Source: Bdellovibrio bacteriovorus
GTDB lineage: Bacteria > Bdellovibrionota > Bdellovibrionia > Bdellovibrionales > Bdellovibrionaceae
Reading direction: 5' to 3'
Assembly: GCF_002208115.1 (NCBI RefSeq)
Contig: NZ_CP020946.1
Location: forward strand, 2,480,001 to 2,544,000
Length of the DNA: 64,000 bases
The notes under the pieces are model-generated. The model searched no databases and was not told the DNA's origin. It saw nothing but the letters and a program-made list of their open reading frames with translations. Positions 29,413 to 37,492 of this stretch are shown piece after piece. Each line of letters opens with the position of its first letter. Positions within the stretch are counted from its first letter, which is position 1. A program made the translations under genes and the position numbers.

Positions 29413-29465
29413 TTTGGCCCATTTTTGAAAAAAAAATGGCGGCCCGAAGGAGACGAGTTCAAAAC
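29413..29465 (-). repeat. tRNA-3'-end-like relic A
   Basis: On the minus strand this reads as a degenerate T-arm and acceptor end (GAACTCGTCTCC ... GGGCCGCCA) followed at once by a hairpin GCCATTTTT..AAAAATGGGC. It resembles the end of a tRNA gene with its terminator, and it is about 85% identical over 30 bases to a copy at 30369-30424. The tRNA-Asp 3' end at 37399-37443 shares the core. No complete tRNA is present. Confidence 0.45.
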
Positions 29466-29578
29466 GCCTTTGTGACAACAACATTCTGTTGTTTATCACA
29501 ATCAAATGTCTAAAAAAAAGACGTGGTATCCTTCAAATTAAACCTTGCGACATCTCAACTGTCTAATAAACTTGGAGT

Positions 29579-30330
29579 ATGAAAACGAAGCTGCTGTACT
29601 TCCTATCTTTTTTTATCTTGGCACATTCAGCGCAGGCAAAAACGGAGACTGAACTTCGCGCCGCGATTCCTGCGGGTCTGGCACCACCTCTTTTGATTGA
29701 AAAAGAAGGAAAAGTGGACGGCCTTATCGTCGACTATGTCAATGCTTTGGCAGAGGCTATGGGACGTACCGCAAGCTTCAGTGTCGTGACTCGTTATCGA
29801 CTTAACAGATACATGCTGACAGGCCAAATGGATGTCCTCTGCTATACAAGCAAAATCTGGGATGACGGAGTTAAAAAATTAGATTTCTCTGAAGTTCTTT
29901 TTAACAAAAAAGAAGTTATTATTGGCCCGGCACCAATGCCAAAAAAAATAAGCGATCTGCAAGGCAAAAAAATCGGAACGATGCTTCAGTATGTTTACCC
30001 TAAGCTCGATCCCTAGATCCCTACTTTGCGTCCGGCAAAATTCTACGCGAAGACAGCTTATCCGAAGAAGGAAATCTAAAAAAACTGCTCAATGGCCGTA
30101 TCCAGTACGTCGTCACAGATCAAATTTTTTTCGATTATTTCCGTCTTGAAAATCCCAACATTGCAAAGAACCGCGAAGCACTTTTTCTGAGAGACTACCC
30201 CATTGTCTGTTCAATCAGTCGCAAAGGGCGAATCACGAAGAAGGAAGTAGACAAAGCCATCGCTGATATTAAAAGTTCGGGAAAAATGAAGGCCTTGTTT
30301 AAAAAATACGGCAGCATGTATGTTGATTGA
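29579..30330 (+). pseudogene. Exported SBP_bac_3-type solute-binding protein, broken by 8-bp duplication
   Basis: The first 145 codons encode a signal peptide (KLLYFLSFFILAHSAQA) and the first lobe of a polar-amino-acid-binding protein (ELRAAIPAGLAPPLLIEKEGKVDGLIVDY). The frame stops at 30014-30016. The bases GATCCCTA occur twice in a row (30008-30015 and 30016-30023). Removing one copy joins the frame to DPYFASGKILREDS and the rest of a normal protein of 247 residues, ending ALFKKYGSMYVD at 30330. The break is thus a recent tandem duplication. The intact protein would bind a small solute in the periplasm. Confidence 0.85.
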
Positions 30331-30346
30331 TTTTGGGCATAAAAAA

Positions 30347-30368: not shown

Positions 30369-30424
30369 TTTTGGCCATGTTTTCGGAGAAAAAATGGCGG
30401 GCCGTATGGGACGAGTTTAGAACT
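30369..30424 (-). repeat. tRNA-3'-end-like relic B, possible left attachment site
   Basis: Like relic A, it reads on the minus strand as an acceptor end (AACTCGTCCC ... GGCCCGCCA) followed by an AT-rich hairpin arm. The 12 bases AAAAATGGCGGG at 30390-30401 recur exactly at 37411-37422, at the 3' end of tRNA-Asp. That makes it the best candidate for the far attachment site of the integrated element. Confidence 0.5.
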
Positions 30425-30572
30425 CAATTGCCATAAATTCGCCAATCGCTTAAAGTTCCAGAGAATGAAAGATGGTCAACGACCCTCAATTCGGCGCAGC
30501 GAATCCATCTAGGTGTATTTCGCCTTTTGGCACCGAATCCCGCAATTAGAATTCCAAAGAAAGATACACAAA

Positions 30573-31214
30573 ATGGCATCCCAAGATTTCTACGTTACAT
30601 TGAAAACAAATGACAGGCCTCTAATCGAGATGAACAAAAGAATCGAGAAGCTTACTTTAATGGAAATATGGGTAATGAAAGCGTCTTCACTTTTTGAGCG
30701 ATATCATCGCCTCCTCGATCAAAATGACAAAGAAACTGACAAAGTAAAAATTGGGATCAACATTGAGGAAATCGACATTTGCTTCATGTCATCGGTGAGT
30801 TATTTTCTGAGATGTTTTTTAAATCAAAAAGGAAGTCTCAACCTTGAAATTAATAATGTTACTGCAGACGCTTCTCAAAGAGCCACATATCAAATGCTGA
30901 TGGACTTGAGGAACGACGAGTACGTTCATTGGAAAGGAGCTCGATCCAAAATTGCTATTAAGTACTCATTTGCCGCACCAACCCCAACTACTTGTGAGTT
31001 TGCAAGAACAGTACAGGCCGACTATTCCGAAACAGTCGGGCCAGATCAAAACTCTGATCAAATTCGAACTCTATTTCGCACAACTCTAGAATACATTAAT
31101 TCACGAAGACTACAGGAGCTTGATGCGATGAGGCAGCGCCTAAGCAAAGCCGAAGCTTGGCCTACTACCAACTTTTACAACCACAATGGGGACCCTGTTA
31201 TTAAGAAGGATTGA
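30573..31214 (+). CDS. HEPN-like protein of the integrative element, 213 aa
   Basis: The middle is helical (MEIWVMKASSLFERYHRLLD; ICFMSSVSYFLRCFLNQKGS). It ends in MDLRNDEYVHWKG, where R113-x5-H119 fits the Rx4-6H motif of HEPN domains, many of which are RNases or toxins. The C-terminal part is unrecognised. The ATG at 30573 lacks a clear ribosome site; a GTG in frame at 30513 is the alternative. It is convergent with the HExxH gene. Motif-based assignment only: the fold was not checked. Confidence 0.5.
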   Translation: MASQDFYVTLKTNDRPLIEMNKRIEKLTLMEIWVMKASSLFERYHRLLDQNDKETDKVKIGINIEEIDICFMSSVSYFLRCFLNQKGSLNLEINNVTADASQRATYQMLMDLRNDEYVHWKGARSKIAIKYSFAAPTPTTCEFARTVQADYSETVGPDQNSDQIRTLFRTTLEYINSRRLQELDAMRQRLSKAEAWPTTNFYNHNGDPVIKKD

Positions 31215-31263: not shown

Positions 31264-31815
31264 CTATCGCATCTGGCGGCGCTCCGTTAAGCGGACTGCA
31301 AACTCTAGATCAACTCCAAGGGTCTTCGTGATAAACTCTGGAGTCATTGCAAAAAAATTTGGTTCTTCAGAACGAAGCTGCATTACAGCCTTAGGCTTTA
31401 AAATAAGTAACTCTCTAACCAAATTATAGGCGGCACAGTAATTCGAATTCGTTTTAAGGTCCTCGATAGCTAACCTTCTATAGTCACGTCCCATGTAGTT
31501 AGGGGCTTCTATGCTAAACTTAACAGCGAGCCCCTCCTCTAGCATTATCGCTGGAGGATGCCGTGCAGGTGCTAACAAATGAACGACCTCATGAGATAAC
31601 TGATAAAGAGCCTGATCATCCTTCACTCCCTTCATCAGATGTATCTCGACCATTTTTTCATCGCCTGGGGGATAGTAAAGATAAGGTCCGTCACTTGAGA
31701 AGGTTACTCCAGCGAAATTCCAAGTTTTATCTCGACCTCCATACCATTGCTCTGCCGTAGCAAGTAACTTGGATGCTTGTCGTTTGAATTCTCTTCTGGA
31801 TTCTCTGCTGTTCAT
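31264..31815 (-). CDS. HExxH metallopeptidase-like protein
   Basis: This 183-residue protein has the zinc-peptidase motif SHEVVHLL (H75-E76-x-x-H79) and, 14-15 residues on, MLEEGLAV. A Glu there is the usual third ligand of gluzincin-type enzymes. No signal peptide is present, so it acts inside the cell. It is the last gene of the operon that starts with the XRE repressor. In ICEBs1-type elements an HExxH protein (ImmA) cleaves the XRE repressor (ImmR). This protein lacks ImmA similarity beyond the motif, so a similar job is only an inference. AAAGG precedes the ATG. Confidence 0.65.
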   Translation of the reverse strand: MNSRESRREFKRQASKLLATAEQWYGGRDKTWNFAGVTFSSDGPYLYYPPGDEKMVEIHLMKGVKDDQALYQLSHEVVHLLAPARHPPAIMLEEGLAVKFSIEAPNYMGRDYRRLAIEDLKTNSNYCAAYNLVRELLILKPKAVMQLRSEEPNFFAMTPEFITKTLGVDLEFAVRLTERRQMR

Positions 31816-31825
31816 TTACAGGCCT

Positions 31826-32065
31826 TTAATCAAGCCACTCTAGGACAGTATTTTCTTTAGCGAGCAACTTATTTCGATTGCATAGGGAGGAGGTGCACTT
31901 ATAAGTTAATTCTCGCACTTTAGCTTTACGTACGCCACAGCCATCTCGTATGTACGCTTCGACTATCTTCTCATCTGGGGCCCTCGGGGCACACATCGAA
32001 CAGGCACTATAGTCACCATAATTCTTCACGTTAGAATACCCACAGCACTTACAGAACTTACCCAT
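31826..32065 (-). CDS. Small zinc-ribbon-like protein, 79 aa
   Basis: The first 25 residues hold FCKCCGYSN and SACSMCAP, two closely spaced cysteine pairs that could bind zinc. Two more cysteines occur in YKCTSSLCNRN and one in DGCGVRK. It lies between the SecB-like and HExxH genes, 10 bases before the latter, with AAGAGGTG before its ATG. No family was recognised. It may bind nucleic acid or a partner protein of the same operon. Confidence 0.6.
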   Translation of the reverse strand: MGKFCKCCGYSNVKNYGDYSACSMCAPRAPDEKIVEAYIRDGCGVRKAKVRELTYKCTSSLCNRNKLLAKENTVLEWLD

Positions 32066-32201
32066 AGCACCTCTTAAAAGGTTTAGCTCTCAAAGTTCGC
32101 ATCTTTAACTATCTAGCCAATTTGCGGTTTTCACTGTCCGGCCAATAAATCCTTGAGCCTCCCGACACGAATACTACTATTGATGACATGCTCATTAAAA
32201 G

Positions 32202-32501
32202 TTACTGACTTTCTTTTTCTACCCCATCCGTCTTCGCTTGAATTTTAAGCAACGGAAGCACGACAGGGAATCCAACTTCACTCGACAGATTAGTAATCAA
32301 TGCTCGAATGTAGGGCCAACCATTCAGCAGACCATTATGTTTAGAAAAAGCATCAAACATTTCCTGAGTAACTTCTTTAGGGATGTTAGATATAGGCAAC
32401 TTATAAATAACATCGTACTGAACTGAATATACAATCTTAGCTGGTCCTTTATCGATAGTGACCGTTGCTCCGACCAGTGCTATTAACGTTTTTCCTTCCA
32501 C
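32202..32501 (-). CDS. SecB-like chaperone
   Basis: The last 60 residues match the SecB-like family: SVQYDVIYKLP, then EMFDAFSKHNGLLNGWPYIRALITNLSSEVGFPVVLPLL, with the characteristic NGWPY-R and the GFPxxLPLL ending. SecB-like proteins bind unfolded clients, and in toxin-antitoxin-chaperone modules they protect an XRE/HigA-type antitoxin. The gene follows an XRE gene here. The start is the GTG at 32501, preceded by AGAAGG. At 99 residues it is shorter than most. The frame is open back to the XRE stop and reads NVSVDYKSGKRRL there, but no usable start codon is seen, so the N-terminus may be longer or partly lost. Confidence 0.65.
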   Translation of the reverse strand: MEGKTLIALVGATVTIDKGPAKIVYSVQYDVIYKLPISNIPKEVTQEMFDAFSKHNGLLNGWPYIRALITNLSSEVGFPVVLPLLKIQAKTDGVEKESQ

Positions 32502-32596
32502 CAGCCTTCTCTTGCCTGACTTGTAGTCGACGCTAACATTAGTTGCGGTCTTATCTATATAAATACCACAGTAATTATAGATACTTACAAGTAAGG

Positions 32597-32821
32597 CTAA
32601 GGATCAAACTCCAACAGCTTGCGAATCGGCACATTCAAAACATCGGCAATCCTCGCAATAGTATAGACTTCGGGGCTAGTAAGACCATTTTCGATCTTAC
32701 TAATGGTACCTCTGGAGAATCCCCCCTCAAGGTAAAGTCGATCCTGACTATAACCTTTTTGTTTTCTTACCTTGGCGATGTGTGCCCCTAAATTCTTTAA
32801 AAACCGTTCTTTCTTGTCCAT
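32597..32821 (-). CDS. XRE-family HTH repressor
   Basis: This 74-residue protein has an almost complete Cro/C1-type HTH: LGAHIAKVRKQKGYSQDRLYLEGGFSRGTISKIENG, followed by SPEVYTIARIADVLNVPIRKLLEF. It has only the DNA-binding domain. The start at 32821 fits the fold; no clear ribosome site is seen. It is the first gene of the leftward operon. The palindrome CTTCCTATAGGAAG upstream, which is repeated before the excisionase gene, is its most likely binding site. It would therefore repress itself, the divergent gene and the recombination genes. Confidence 0.88.
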   Translation of the reverse strand: MDKKERFLKNLGAHIAKVRKQKGYSQDRLYLEGGFSRGTISKIENGLTSPEVYTIARIADVLNVPIRKLLEFDP

Positions 32822-32854: not shown

Positions 32855-32884
32855 CTTCCTATAGGAAGGTAAAGTATAGGAAGG
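32855..32884. promoter_or_regulatory. Operator region: palindrome CTTCCTATAGGAAG plus half-site
   Basis: A perfect 14-bp palindrome (32855-32868) lies in the divergent promoter region between the XRE gene and the gene at 32920. A half-site TATAGGAAGG follows 13 bases away (32875-32884). The same palindrome occurs at 35721-35736. Confidence 0.75.
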
Positions 32885-32919: not shown

Positions 32920-33570
32920 ATGATAAAAATAACGCGACATATTATGACGACAAAAATAGCCATAACCACCCTGCTTACAACCGCCTGCGCCACCCTAGAA
33001 ACGCCATATTCTCGCTGGGACAAACTAACCTCAGATCCCCTATACCAATCTGAGAAGAAGACCTTCAACGAACGCCTGAACGGCAAAGAGCTTTGCCCCA
33101 GTATCGGGGTCGCAAATTTTACTTATGAAACCTCCATAGTACCGGACAAAAAGTGCATCTACCCTGATGTCAAAATTGCAAAGGTGTACCTGGAAAGCGA
33201 CAGGGAGTGGGCGAAATCTCTAAAGGTCCTTCAGGTCCTCGACAATGGTTTCATCGTATCCAGCAACTCCCCAAGGGCCACGACCATCTTTATCCACAAA
33301 ACCGATCAAGAAGGTGTCGTTGATGATACCTACTTAGCGAATGACCCAAATAAATTCCCATTCTATGAGTATACAGGGCCATATTCGTACAATAGCTTAA
33401 GTGGCAAACGAACAGTTCACTCATTTAAGAAGGTCGACAGACAAGTCTTCGTACAAGCCCAGAACGGCCTAAACTCTTACTTCTATCTTCGGGACCTTTT
33501 CGGAAACGAAAATCTATGGGACTGGGTAGAAGCCATAGAGAAGTCATACAAAAAGTTTGGATACAAATAG
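32920..33570 (+). CDS. Possible lipoprotein of the integrative element, 216 aa
   Basis: A short N-terminal hydrophobic stretch (KIAITTLLTTACATL) ends in a cysteine with only a weak lipobox (TTAC). The protein could be a lipoprotein exported to the cell surface. The rest is not recognised (CPSIGVANFTYET, VYLESDREWAKSLKVLQVLDNGFIV, SYFYLRDLFGNENLWDWVEAIEKSY). GGAG lies six bases before the ATG. It is transcribed away from the XRE gene under the shared operator, so it may be silenced by the repressor. Its 3' end overlaps the convergent gene by 27 bases. It could serve as a cargo or entry-exclusion protein (inference). Confidence 0.6.
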   Translation: MIKITRHIMTTKIAITTLLTTACATLETPYSRWDKLTSDPLYQSEKKTFNERLNGKELCPSIGVANFTYETSIVPDKKCIYPDVKIAKVYLESDREWAKSLKVLQVLDNGFIVSSNSPRATTIFIHKTDQEGVVDDTYLANDPNKFPFYEYTGPYSYNSLSGKRTVHSFKKVDRQVFVQAQNGLNSYFYLRDLFGNENLWDWVEAIEKSYKKFGYK

Positions 33571-34446
33571 GTGCATTATTGCTCCTTGATATCTGTGGGG
33601 GAGATAGTCCAGCAGCTTGGGCAATGGCATAGCAGCCTCCCCCTCCCCGCCCAAAGAGTCGGCAACAACTCCAATAGCCTCCGAGAAATAAGGGATTTCT
33701 TCTTTTAATTCAGCAATCGCCAGATCCCATGGCGCTACTTCATGCGCCACACGCCCCAAAATCTTATCCCAAATCTTAGCGCATTTCGGGCACCCTTGCG
33801 AAAGCTTAGAAACAAAGTCCTCGGAGTTCCATCTCGGCCATTCAGATATCACCTTGGGCATATGACAGGCTTTCTTCTTTATAGCCTTATCAACCAACTT
33901 TTTTGCCCTGGAAATTCTATTCTGAACAGTGCCAACCTTAAGAGACTCCCCGAAGCCCCTCCAATATCCAACCTTCTTCAAAATCGCGGTTAAAACATGC
34001 GTTGGCTTCAAAAGACCGTTTTCCACTAAAATCTGATGCAAAACCCAAAGATGAAAATCTATAGCCTGAGCGTCCCGTATGTTACTTTTGATTTTTTCCT
34101 CCTGGATCAAGAACGCTTTCTCTAGCACAGCCAGGAATAACTGCCGTTTGATAAAATCATCTTCAATGAACTCGTAAGGATTCTGATCTCGCTCCAGTTG
34201 CTCGGCGGACCGGCTCAACGTAACCATTCTAAATTGAAGATCTTTTCTGACACTTCTCTTATCTAGGCCACTATTTTGAAGACTCAAAAAGTTGGTCCTA
34301 ATACGAACAGAACTGACCACTGCCCGTCGCTGATGTGGACTCAACTCTATTCCCAGCTTGGATAACTCGATAGCCATTCGGGAAACCAATTCCATCTCTT
34401 TGGGCCAATGTGAAAACTTATCTTTTCTTCTATTTTTTCTATTCAT
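33544..34446 (-). CDS. Unknown protein of the integrative element, 300 aa
   Basis: It is largely helical and basic, with a very basic start (MNRKNRRKDKF) and possible HTH-like segment (VGTVQNRISRAKKLVDKAIKKK). A CPKC pair near residue 215 could bind metal. I do not recognise it. It is divergent from the replication-initiator gene across a 328-bp gap. It may act in replication or DNA binding (inference from basic character and place). Confidence 0.6.
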   Translation of the reverse strand: MNRKNRRKDKFSHWPKEMELVSRMAIELSKLGIELSPHQRRAVVSSVRIRTNFLSLQNSGLDKRSVRKDLQFRMVTLSRSAEQLERDQNPYEFIEDDFIKRQLFLAVLEKAFLIQEEKIKSNIRDAQAIDFHLWVLHQILVENGLLKPTHVLTAILKKVGYWRGFGESLKVGTVQNRISRAKKLVDKAIKKKACHMPKVISEWPRWNSEDFVSKLSQGCPKCAKIWDKILGRVAHEVAPWDLAIAELKEEIPYFSEAIGVVADSLGGEGEAAMPLPKLLDYLPHRYQGAIMHLFVSKLFV

Positions 34447-34774
34447 GAGAAACCGCCAGACCGAACCCTTTGCCGTGAATAGTTACGGCTCACGCTTGAT
34501 ACGAGCAAGAACTAAGTTAGCCTTCATGAAAGTCGTAATACCTTGCACAATGTGCACATCAGATAAAGCATGCACCTGTAAAAGCGCCCTCGTATCGTTC
34601 TTCGAACTATGCCAACGGACTTCGTCCAGGATATTAACGCGGAAACCTTCGTCAAATGCAGTCCCCCTCCCCCTCGCAGGGGCAGGTATTGATAAGCTCA
34701 ACGCTTCACTTCAGGAGTCGCCTCTAGCCTCAGATGTCTTAAACACTGCTCGCAACAACAATCTCGAGGTCAAA
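34447..34774. other. Intergenic region before the replication gene; possible origin
   Basis: This 328-base stretch holds no convincing gene. It contains a C-rich then G-rich hairpin CCCCT-CGC-AGGGG (34670-34682). A 72-codon open frame on the minus strand (34701 to 34483, TTG start) reads like protein in its last 55 residues (FRVNILDEVRWHSSKND) but has no ribosome site. Rolling-circle origins usually lie near the rep gene, so this is the place to look for the nick site. No known nick sequence was recognised. Confidence 0.35.
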
Positions 34775-35518
34775 ATGACTCGTTTAGACAAAAAACCTAC
34801 ACTTAGAGTTGGATCTGAAAAGATGTTTATTCATCTTTTGCTAGACCCCACCCACGAAATGATCACGGGGTTAATCTCAAATCCCAATCGATTCAAAAGC
34901 TGGACGGACTACGTTGAGTTCATCCAGAGCATCCTCCCGCTAACGAGCATTCAAACGGCTAAAGTCACTAGACTTGATTTGAATATCGATTTCAACACGC
35001 CCTTCAATCAGCTAATCCAGCAAATCAATATAAAACAGAAGAGTACCGGCACCCGATACGAGGATAAAAAAGGAGAAAGAACAGGCATTTACATCGGAAA
35101 AGGCAGCGAGATTCTGGTCATCTACGACAAAAGCAAGAAAGACAAACTTTCCTCATCACATTCGAGAATTGAACTACGCCTAGCCCGAAAAAAGCTACCG
35201 ACTCAATCCTTATACGATCTTCCTCAATACCTAAAGAGCAAATCCTTCTTCTCGCATCTGGAAGGAGTTTACGTTGCACCGACGCCAACTCTTATCAGTG
35301 ACAGCCAGAAGAAAAAGATACAGGAGTTTCAATCCATCTTACAAAGAGATGGCTTCTTTGCAGCTCGCAAGGCTATGGATCAGAATCGGAACTTCGACCG
35401 CGACTTCGTCCAGGTTTTAAAGATATCCCCATGGCCTACCCACCCCTCTGAAATCTTTAAACGTGGAATACAAGCCTTTTTAGAGGGCAATAGCGATACG
35501 ACTAGCGACCTTCACTAG
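34775..35518 (+). CDS. Rep_trans-like replication initiation protein
   Basis: The 247-residue protein shows the order typical of Rep_trans (replication initiation factor) proteins of small plasmids and filamentous phages: VTRLDLNIDF near residue 67, RTGIYIGKGSEILVIYDKSKK near 105, then SRIELRLARKKLP. These would nick or bind the origin of a rolling-circle replicon. The start at 34775 is set by GAGG five bases upstream and by the loss of protein-like character before it, although the frame is open back to 34358. A circular form of the element may thus replicate on its own. Confidence 0.7.
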   Translation: MTRLDKKPTLRVGSEKMFIHLLLDPTHEMITGLISNPNRFKSWTDYVEFIQSILPLTSIQTAKVTRLDLNIDFNTPFNQLIQQINIKQKSTGTRYEDKKGERTGIYIGKGSEILVIYDKSKKDKLSSSHSRIELRLARKKLPTQSLYDLPQYLKSKSFFSHLEGVYVAPTPTLISDSQKKKIQEFQSILQRDGFFAARKAMDQNRNFDRDFVQVLKISPWPTHPSEIFKRGIQAFLEGNSDTTSDLH

Positions 35519-35720: not shown

Positions 35721-35736
35721 CCTTCCTATAGGAAGG
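35721..35736. promoter_or_regulatory. Operator: 16-bp palindrome before the excisionase gene
   Basis: CCTTCCTATAGGAAGG is a perfect 16-bp palindrome, whose inner 14 bases equal the one in the XRE promoter region. It lies 25 bases before the ATG of the HTH gene, between a possible -10 (TACAAT at 35703) and the ribosome site AAGGAGG. A second small inverted repeat, CAAGTT-TCC-AACTTG, lies at 35679-35693. Confidence 0.75.
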
Positions 35737-35761
35737 TTTCATTTTACAAAGGAGGTTTTAA

Positions 35762-35974
35762 ATGGGTATAGAACAATCATCAACCTTAGGTAACATTGCA
35801 CACAATGCTGGACATTGGCTGACGGTCAGCCAGTTGGCGAAGAAGTTCAAAGTTCATCCTGAGACTATTCGACGATGGGCCAACAGCGGGCGGCTAAAAC
35901 ATATCCGTCATCCCATCAATAAATATCGCCTATTTCTAGATACGGACTTTAGCGAGGGTAAAGATCATGATTAA
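35762..35974 (+). CDS. HTH excisionase-like protein
   Basis: This 70-residue protein has a MerR-like helix-turn-helix: HWLTVSQLAKKFKVHPETIRRWANSGRLKHIRHPINKYRLF (residues 18-58). This is typical of excisionases and of the small DNA-binding proteins encoded before IS607-type and large serine recombinases. AAAGGAGG gives a strong ribosome site. Its stop overlaps the recombinase start by eight bases, so the two are translated as a coupled pair. Confidence 0.85.
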   Translation: MGIEQSSTLGNIAHNAGHWLTVSQLAKKFKVHPETIRRWANSGRLKHIRHPINKYRLFLDTDFSEGKDHD

Positions 35975-37457
35975 AAAAGCAGTCGCTTACGCAAGAGTTT
36001 CATCAAAAGAACAAGAGCGCGAAGGCTTTTCAATTCCAGCACAGAAAAAGCTTCTTCAAGACTACGCAAAAAAGAATGGCTTTGAAATTGTCCGATTTTT
36101 TGAAGAGGCGGAAACTGCCAAGCAAGCTGGCCGAAAGCAATTTCGAAGGATGTTGGATTTCCTAGAAGAGAATCTGGACATCAAGGACGTCCTAGTCGAA
36201 AAGGTTGACCGAATGTATCGCAACTTTCACGACTCGGTGTCCTTACAAACGAATGCCAATCATCTTCGCCTGCATTTCGTAAAACAGGGGAAGATTCACT
36301 CAAAAGACTCTAAGTCTCACGACAAGCTTCACCATGATATTGATCTGGCCGTGGCCAATTATCACGTCAACAACCTTTCAGAGGAAGTAAAAAAGGGTTC
36401 TGATCAGAAAGCTGCACAAGGGGGCTGGCCAGGGCCAGCCCCTCTTGGGTACAAGAATCGCCTTGAGGATCACACCATCATCATTCACCCCGAAGAAAGC
36501 GTTCTAATAAAGAAAGCCTACGACCTGGCCGCCACCGGACAATACTCACTACTAAGGCTTAAAAAAGAAATGCACCGTTTGGGCTTGCGCTCCAAAAGAG
36601 CAAAGGTTGAGCTATCGAAATCAGCAATGTCTCGAGTTCTGACCAATCCATTTTACTATGGCTACTTCCTACGCAAAGGAACCCTATACAAGGCCACTCA
36701 TCCCCCTATCATCTCAAAAGACCTTTTCGATAGAGTCCAAGAAATAATGGGCTATGTTAAGAAACCCCATCAGACAAAGCGCCTCCTTACCTACCGTGGC
36801 ACCGTCACCTGTGCCCATTGTGGATGTTCTATCACCGGGGAGGTAAAAAAGGGGCGCTATACATACTACCGATGCACCAATGGGAAGCTCATTTGCGACA
36901 ATGTTGTATATCTTCGCGAAGCCGAACTAGATGAGGGCTTCAAAAACGCACTTAGAAGAATCAAGATACCTCGTGAGATCATCGAATGGACCGAAAACGA
37001 GCTGAAACAGTCCTCGGCTGCGCAATTCAAAGAGAGCCAGGCACAACTGAGCCTACTAAAGAAACGTTTCAGGGAAATAGAAGGACGACTATCACTAGCC
37101 TATGACCACTATTTGGACGGCAAAATCACCTCAGATATGTGGGAACTCAAATCAAAACAATGGCAGGATGAGAAGGCGTCACTTCAGAATCAATTAACCA
37201 CTCTAGAACTCCAAGACCAAGGGGAGCAAAAAAACGTACTTCCCTTGATGGACTTGGCTTCCAAGGCATCAACGCTCTTTGATTCTATGACTTCTGATGA
37301 AAAACGGGAGATGTTAGGTTTGGTACTATCGAACCCACAAATAAAAAACGGAAGTCTTCAATATGACTTCCGTTTTCCTTTTTCCTACTTCGTGGGGATC
37401 GGCCATTTAGAAAAATGGCGGGGTGGACGGGACTCGAACCCGCGGCCTTCCGCGTGA
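35967..37457 (+). CDS. Large serine recombinase (integrase) of the element
   Basis: The protein (496 residues) has an N-terminal resolvase domain with the catalytic serine in YARVSSKEQ (S12), a Recombinase domain (GGWPGPAPLGYKN, SKSAMSRVLTNPFYYGYF, about 150-260) and a zinc ribbon (TCAHCGCSITGE ... YYRCTNGKLICD, about 280-312). A coiled coil follows (about 350-420). It should integrate and excise the element. Its last codons (GGRDSNPRPSA) are antisense to the T-arm and variable region of tRNA-Asp, and the stop lies opposite the anticodon arm. The sequence encoding the C-terminus is therefore rebuilt at each integration. Confidence 0.92.
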   Translation: MIKKAVAYARVSSKEQEREGFSIPAQKKLLQDYAKKNGFEIVRFFEEAETAKQAGRKQFRRMLDFLEENLDIKDVLVEKVDRMYRNFHDSVSLQTNANHLRLHFVKQGKIHSKDSKSHDKLHHDIDLAVANYHVNNLSEEVKKGSDQKAAQGGWPGPAPLGYKNRLEDHTIIIHPEESVLIKKAYDLAATGQYSLLRLKKEMHRLGLRSKRAKVELSKSAMSRVLTNPFYYGYFLRKGTLYKATHPPIISKDLFDRVQEIMGYVKKPHQTKRLLTYRGTVTCAHCGCSITGEVKKGRYTYYRCTNGKLICDNVVYLREAELDEGFKNALRRIKIPREIIEWTENELKQSSAAQFKESQAQLSLLKKRFREIEGRLSLAYDHYLDGKITSDMWELKSKQWQDEKASLQNQLTTLELQDQGEQKNVLPLMDLASKASTLFDSMTSDEKREMLGLVLSNPQIKNGSLQYDFRFPFSYFVGIGHLEKWRGGRDSNPRPSA

Positions 37458-37492
37458 CAGGCGGACGTTATAACCAACTTAACTACCACCCC
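37416..37492 (-). tRNA. tRNA-Asp (GTC)
   Basis: A full 77-base cloverleaf with encoded CCA is present. The acceptor stem is GGGGTGG with CCACCCC, the anticodon loop is CTGTCAC with anticodon GTC, and the T-arm is GCGGGTTCGAGTCCCGT. The discriminator is G. Downstream on its strand a small hairpin GCCATTT..AAATGGC acts as terminator. The 3' end is the attachment site of the integrated element, whose recombinase gene overlaps it antisense. Confidence 0.95.

Follow-up and report, generated by a model that had tools for sequence, protein, structure and literature searches.

Four consecutive minus-strand genes in the 64-kb window (the whole stretch of DNA analysed here) encode an XRE-type DNA-binding protein, a SecB-like protein, a Cys-rich protein and an HExxH protein, raising the question of whether the chaperone-like and peptidase-like products act on the repressor or are merely carried along with it. 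The original prediction favored the former, with repressor stability set by a chaperone and a peptidase, and export or folding stress thereby linked to excision of a mobile element. All four open reading frames were found at the claimed site and in the claimed order, within a low-GC stretch (Table 1). The SecB-like gene is flanked by gaps of 95 and 136 nt, and 10 nt separate the Cys-rich gene from the HExxH gene; the four genes need not form one operon. Promoter and terminator scans gave signals near the shuffled expectation. Their order was not conserved in the loci examined, with no occurrence among about 66 HExxH loci, the SecB-like relatives from 369 genomes and the XRE-relative loci. A programmed frameshift fusing the XRE and SecB-like frames was also considered; no slippery site was seen by eye.

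Table 1. Features of the integrative island, in order of position in the window.
Feature	Position	Strand	Remarks
Left end, attL core AAAAATGGCGGG	30390..30401		12-bp repeat of 37411-37422
ORF without assigned function, 233 aa (probable start 30573, 213 aa)	30513..31214	+	Convergent to the HExxH gene
HExxH gene	31815-31264	-	183 aa; HEVVH at residues 75-79
Cys-rich (zinc-ribbon-like) gene	32065-31826	-	79 aa; CKCC...CSMC by sequence; weak Cys_rich_CPCC match, E 0.03
SecB-like gene	32501-32202	-	99 aa if started at GTG; open frame reaches back to 32603
XRE gene	32821-32597	-	74 aa from ATG; HTH_3 E 3.6e-14
Putative XRE operator 1, CTTCCTATAGGAAGGT	32855..32870		34 bp before XRE start; adjacent half-site TAGGAAGGG
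Lipoprotein-like core protein, 216 aa	32920..33570	+	Divergent from XRE; 30-32% identity to counterparts in sister elements L152 and L155
Core protein, 300 aa, weak sigma-70 region 4 similarity	33544..34446	-	Pfam E 0.07; 29-31% identity to sister-element counterparts
Replication initiator-like protein (weak G2P/Phage_CRI)	34514..35518	+	Pfam E 0.008; 39-42% identical in four Bdellovibrionota genomes
Putative XRE operator 2	35722..35737		40 bp before MerR/excisionase start
MerR/excisionase-type DNA-binding protein	35762..35974	+	HTH_17 E 2e-9; excisionase domain
Large serine recombinase, ending inside tRNA-Asp	35967..37457	+	Resolvase E 5e-24; Recombinase E 7e-14; phrog_95 integrase E 6e-77
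Right end, attR core AAAAATGGCGGG	37411..37422		3' end of tRNA-Asp (37416-37492)

The run belongs to an element integrated at the 3' end of a tRNA-Asp gene. Its size of 7,021 bp was established from the 12-bp core, present as a direct repeat at both ends, and from the vacant site in genomes G069 (HD100-like) and G048, where tRNA-Asp directly adjoins the upstream genes with no insert. These ends and vacant sites, together with the profile matches of the recombinase, confirmed the claim of a mobile element that encodes a serine recombinase. The same tRNA-Asp holds recombinase remnants in several Bdellovibrio genomes, with 65% identity in G061. Outside the island, a 51-nt stretch of the window (29422-29472) matches the element's left end (30380-30430) at 76% identity and is missing at that place in G069; it is possibly the scar of an earlier insertion. 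The adjoining periplasmic binding protein gene (29579-30331) has its reading frame shifted near 30010 by a short insertion relative to the G069 copy. Inside the left end, the 233-aa ORF had no match in Pfam, NCBIfam, PHROGs or PADLOC and no relative in plasmids or in 180 genomes. Its product contains RNDEYVH, in which a likeness to a HEPN ribonuclease motif was seen only by eye.

The XRE protein consists of a single HTH domain and ends about five residues past the HTH_3 match. A palindrome, CTTCCTATAGGAAG, stands both upstream of its gene and upstream of the MerR/excisionase gene; it was the sole recurring 14-bp palindrome in the window, and for its 15-bp form the whole 3.77-Mb genome has only these two places within one mismatch. 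XRE is likely the element's own repressor and, judging from the sequence, would repress both its own promoter and that of the excisionase and recombinase genes. This favors the proposed connection of the repressor to excision, since the putative XRE operator also stands at the recombinase promoter.

Relatives of the island were then compared. In a sister element (L155) from a genome of the same order but another family (G029), XRE was 82% identical over its length and equally long, while identities were 65% for the recombinase, 59% for MerR, 41% for the Rep-like protein, 32% for the lipoprotein and 29% for the sigma-4-like protein. The identical palindrome occurs there at both homologous places, at the same distance of 34 bp before XRE. 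Genome G331 encodes an XRE protein with 80% identity and has near-palindromes at both places, and in G010 (66% identity) a near-palindrome lies 34 bp upstream. XRE and its operator thus stay together while the rest diverges.

The gene content beside XRE differed. The G029 element carries a DRT2 reverse transcriptase gene (PADLOC Drt2, E 2.6e-133) in place of the SecB-like, Cys-rich and HExxH genes, and none of these three was found near any XRE-relative locus as far as the contigs reach; those of L155 and L152/L181 stop 1-2 kb past XRE, leaving farther cargo there out of view. Type I RM genes adjoin a related island in G267, and a PDC-S64 candidate adjoins the G065 remnant (island limits unmapped there). 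No XRE was detected in the G267 island. A 10.5-kb contig from G162 (C92; locus L151, on the same contig as L015) combines a complete MqsR-MqsA-SecB module with an XRE-like gene, a Rep relative and a serine recombinase, indicating that related elements, in this case with distantly related Rep and recombinase genes, can carry the whole module.

The locus is best explained, and in our judgement probably so, as a repressor-controlled integrative island in tRNA-Asp whose cargo is exchangeable and probably of defence type; the SecB-like and HExxH proteins would not be needed to run the repressor. Its core would consist of XRE, the lipoprotein, the sigma-4-like, Rep-like and MerR/excisionase proteins and the serine recombinase. 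Most likely XRE would bind CTTCCTATAGGAAG in two places, its own divergent promoter and the promoter of the excisionase and recombinase genes, and would thereby keep the island integrated. The SecB-like, Cys-rich, HExxH and 233-aa genes would occupy a variable cargo slot, which holds a defence gene (DRT2) in at least one sister island, and the HExxH gene would be an independently mobile minimal gluzincin. Judged by their position, the cargo genes of this island may have a defence role.

Against this explanation stand the failure to detect an XRE in the G267 island, the early ends of the sister contigs, and the XRE and SecB-like genes, which adjoin on one strand like antitoxin-chaperone pairs. 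The adjacency of the genes on one strand fits the original proposal, in which the SecB-like protein would help the XRE repressor to fold or shield it, the HExxH peptidase would cut it, and export or folding stress would lead to excision. The SecB-like identity, the predicted gluzincin fold and the palindrome at the recombinase promoter are likewise consistent with it, and antitoxin-chaperone pairs lacking a toxin, as well as SecB-like genes on phages and plasmids, have already been described (PMC4257090). However, antitoxins in toxin-antitoxin-chaperone (TAC) modules depend on their chaperone through a C-terminal addiction region (PMC5105189), and no such extension was found on XRE, which ends at the HTH domain, nor on its equally long sister. 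The sister island, moreover, carries DRT2 as cargo and still has XRE and both operators, without the three genes, which, as far as the contigs reach, are also missing near the XRE-relative loci; the SecB-like protein lacks the first strand of its fold; and the HExxH protein fails the PF06114 profile and its relatives, in about 66 loci, are not partnered by an XRE gene. Control of repressor stability by a chaperone and a peptidase is accordingly regarded as highly improbable, and stress as the trigger of excision found no support here.

The SecB-like identity itself stood in part. A profile built from five relatives, with this protein left out, picked out the frame from the window's 1,828 six-frame segments at E 1e-10, with a match covering the C-terminal half, and the family profile that included the protein matched Rv1957 (5mtw) at E 4.4e-6. 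On its own, the Pfam SecB model gave a weak match of 13.7 bits at E 0.06, below its 26-bit cut-off. The blocks on which the assignment had been based, NGWPYIR and GFPVVLPLLK, do exist, whereas alignment showed the first strand of the SecB fold to be missing, and a clear start codon is lacking: the frame 32603-32202 has no ATG, GTG or TTG before the GTG at 32501, codon 34 of the open frame. A single-sequence fold prediction was poor (pLDDT 44) and was left out of fold searching. Four relatives (L015, L017, L111 and L112) lie in MqsR-MqsA-SecB order, with Pfam support for the first two and assignment by position and likeness for the others; another (L016) lies at a contig edge, and none was found in plasmids, phages or viral contigs. 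The L112 protein, from a close Bdellovibrio relative (G048), is without the usual LPLLK end.

By these profile matches the protein is a real TAC-type relative, and its gene is probably the orphaned or decaying chaperone gene of a TAC module. The noted absence of a HigB-type toxin was borne out: the element showed no gene of HigB, MqsR or MqsA type, the element ORFs scanned held no Pfam toxin (HigB, MqsR or HicA type), and the MqsR profile came back empty. The frame could even be a pseudogenized remnant of a TAC module, with the Cys-rich and HExxH genes as unrelated passengers, which we regard as a serious possibility, if somewhat short of an even chance. The late first start codon, the missing strand and the failure to find MqsR or MqsA remains all point in this direction, but the downstream 99 codons are open with the family blocks intact, and translation could begin at a GTG preceded by AGAAGG. 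Decay of this kind would be compatible with the explanation of the locus as an island with exchangeable cargo.

The AlphaFold2 model of the HExxH protein (pLDDT 93.8, pTM 0.90) had a thermolysin-like gluzincin fold, and 162 of its 183 residues superposed on M1 aminopeptidase catalytic domains with VIA-align (Z 11, 3.3 A), while Foldseek alone gave weak matches (E no better than 8.5e-3). Residues H75, E76, H79, E93, E94 and G95 were invariant in 46 aligned family sequences, and no Pfam or NCBIfam model matches the family. The protein is, as modelled, a minimal gluzincin (clan MA) with an M1-like catalytic domain. Of the predicted ImmA-type peptidase, the peptidase-type fold was retained, in M1-like form, and the ImmA identity was rejected by profile: PF06114 had no match in the protein or in the genome, whereas controls matched in 7 of 14 genomes. 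ImmA-like PprI appeared among the weak Foldseek rows with a TM of 0.2, so structure does not settle the ImmA question.

Relatives of the HExxH protein, with 23-43% identity, occur in many phyla and on enterobacterial plasmids. Across the approximately 66 loci no partner gene was conserved, and no SecB-like or Cys-rich gene was found near any of them. On plasmid P3 of Deinococcus gobiensis a relative (L012, 3926-4516) lies between type I hsdS and hsdR, and on pVb1978 of Vibrio alginolyticus a partial, unannotated relative (L013, 4001-4231), possibly in an integron cassette, lies just after the catB resistance gene.

These neighborhoods also bear on whether the SecB-like, Cys-rich and HExxH genes make up a self-contained TAC-like defence module, with an effector peptidase, a Cys-rich inhibitor and a SecB-like protein as both chaperone of the inhibitor and sensor, comparable to CmdC of CmdTAC, which senses a phage capsid protein (PMC11618068). 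Besides this precedent, the 10-nt spacing of the Cys-rich and HExxH genes, the location of all three in the slot where the sister island has DRT2, and the TAC chaperones among the SecB-like relatives agree with such a module. By contrast, the Cys-rich protein had no relatives in the searches made, the HExxH relatives lack the other two as neighbors, and the SecB-like gene lacks a clear start codon. We consider this module unlikely. The specific form in which the three would be a new chaperone-gated anti-phage module, with a gluzincin effector, a Cys-rich inhibitor and a shortened SecB-like sensor, draws its positive support from position and appears quite unlikely.

Read as a repressor-controlled island, the locus defines a family of Bdellovibrionota islands with a putative XRE operator common to the repressor and recombinase promoters, a family that to our knowledge has not been described. 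In a sister island the cargo slot beside the repressor is occupied by a known defence gene. The HExxH gene, for its part, draws attention to stand-alone minimal gluzincins as a widespread family without a name, encoded on plasmids and next to restriction genes.

Compared with known systems, the HExxH protein resembles ImmA/IrrE (Peptidase_M78, PF06114) in that its gene lies close to an XRE gene on an integrative element, but its best structural matches are M1-like and its relatives are unpaired with XRE genes. With the M1 aminopeptidase domain it shares a fold over the whole model and, in addition to HExxH, an EEGLA motif that resembles the NEGFA of M1 aminopeptidases; it differs in being a stand-alone protein of 183 aa with 10-15% identity and with 14 residues separating the last His from Glu94. 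The SecB-like protein has in common with TAC chaperones (Rv1957/HigBA1; MqsR-MqsA-SecB) the C-terminal blocks N-x-W/Y-P-Y/F-x-R and G-x-P-x-x-LPLLK, and its gene likewise follows an HTH gene, whereas the island has neither a toxin nor an addiction-tailed antitoxin, and the protein is without the first strand and clear start codon. With repressor-controlled integrative elements that use a serine recombinase and an excisionase, the island shares an XRE repressor, a putative operator present at both promoters, insertion in a tRNA gene and variable cargo; what sets it apart is a core made up of the Rep-like protein, the lipoprotein and the sigma-4-like protein, which was found, as far as searched, only in Bdellovibrionota.
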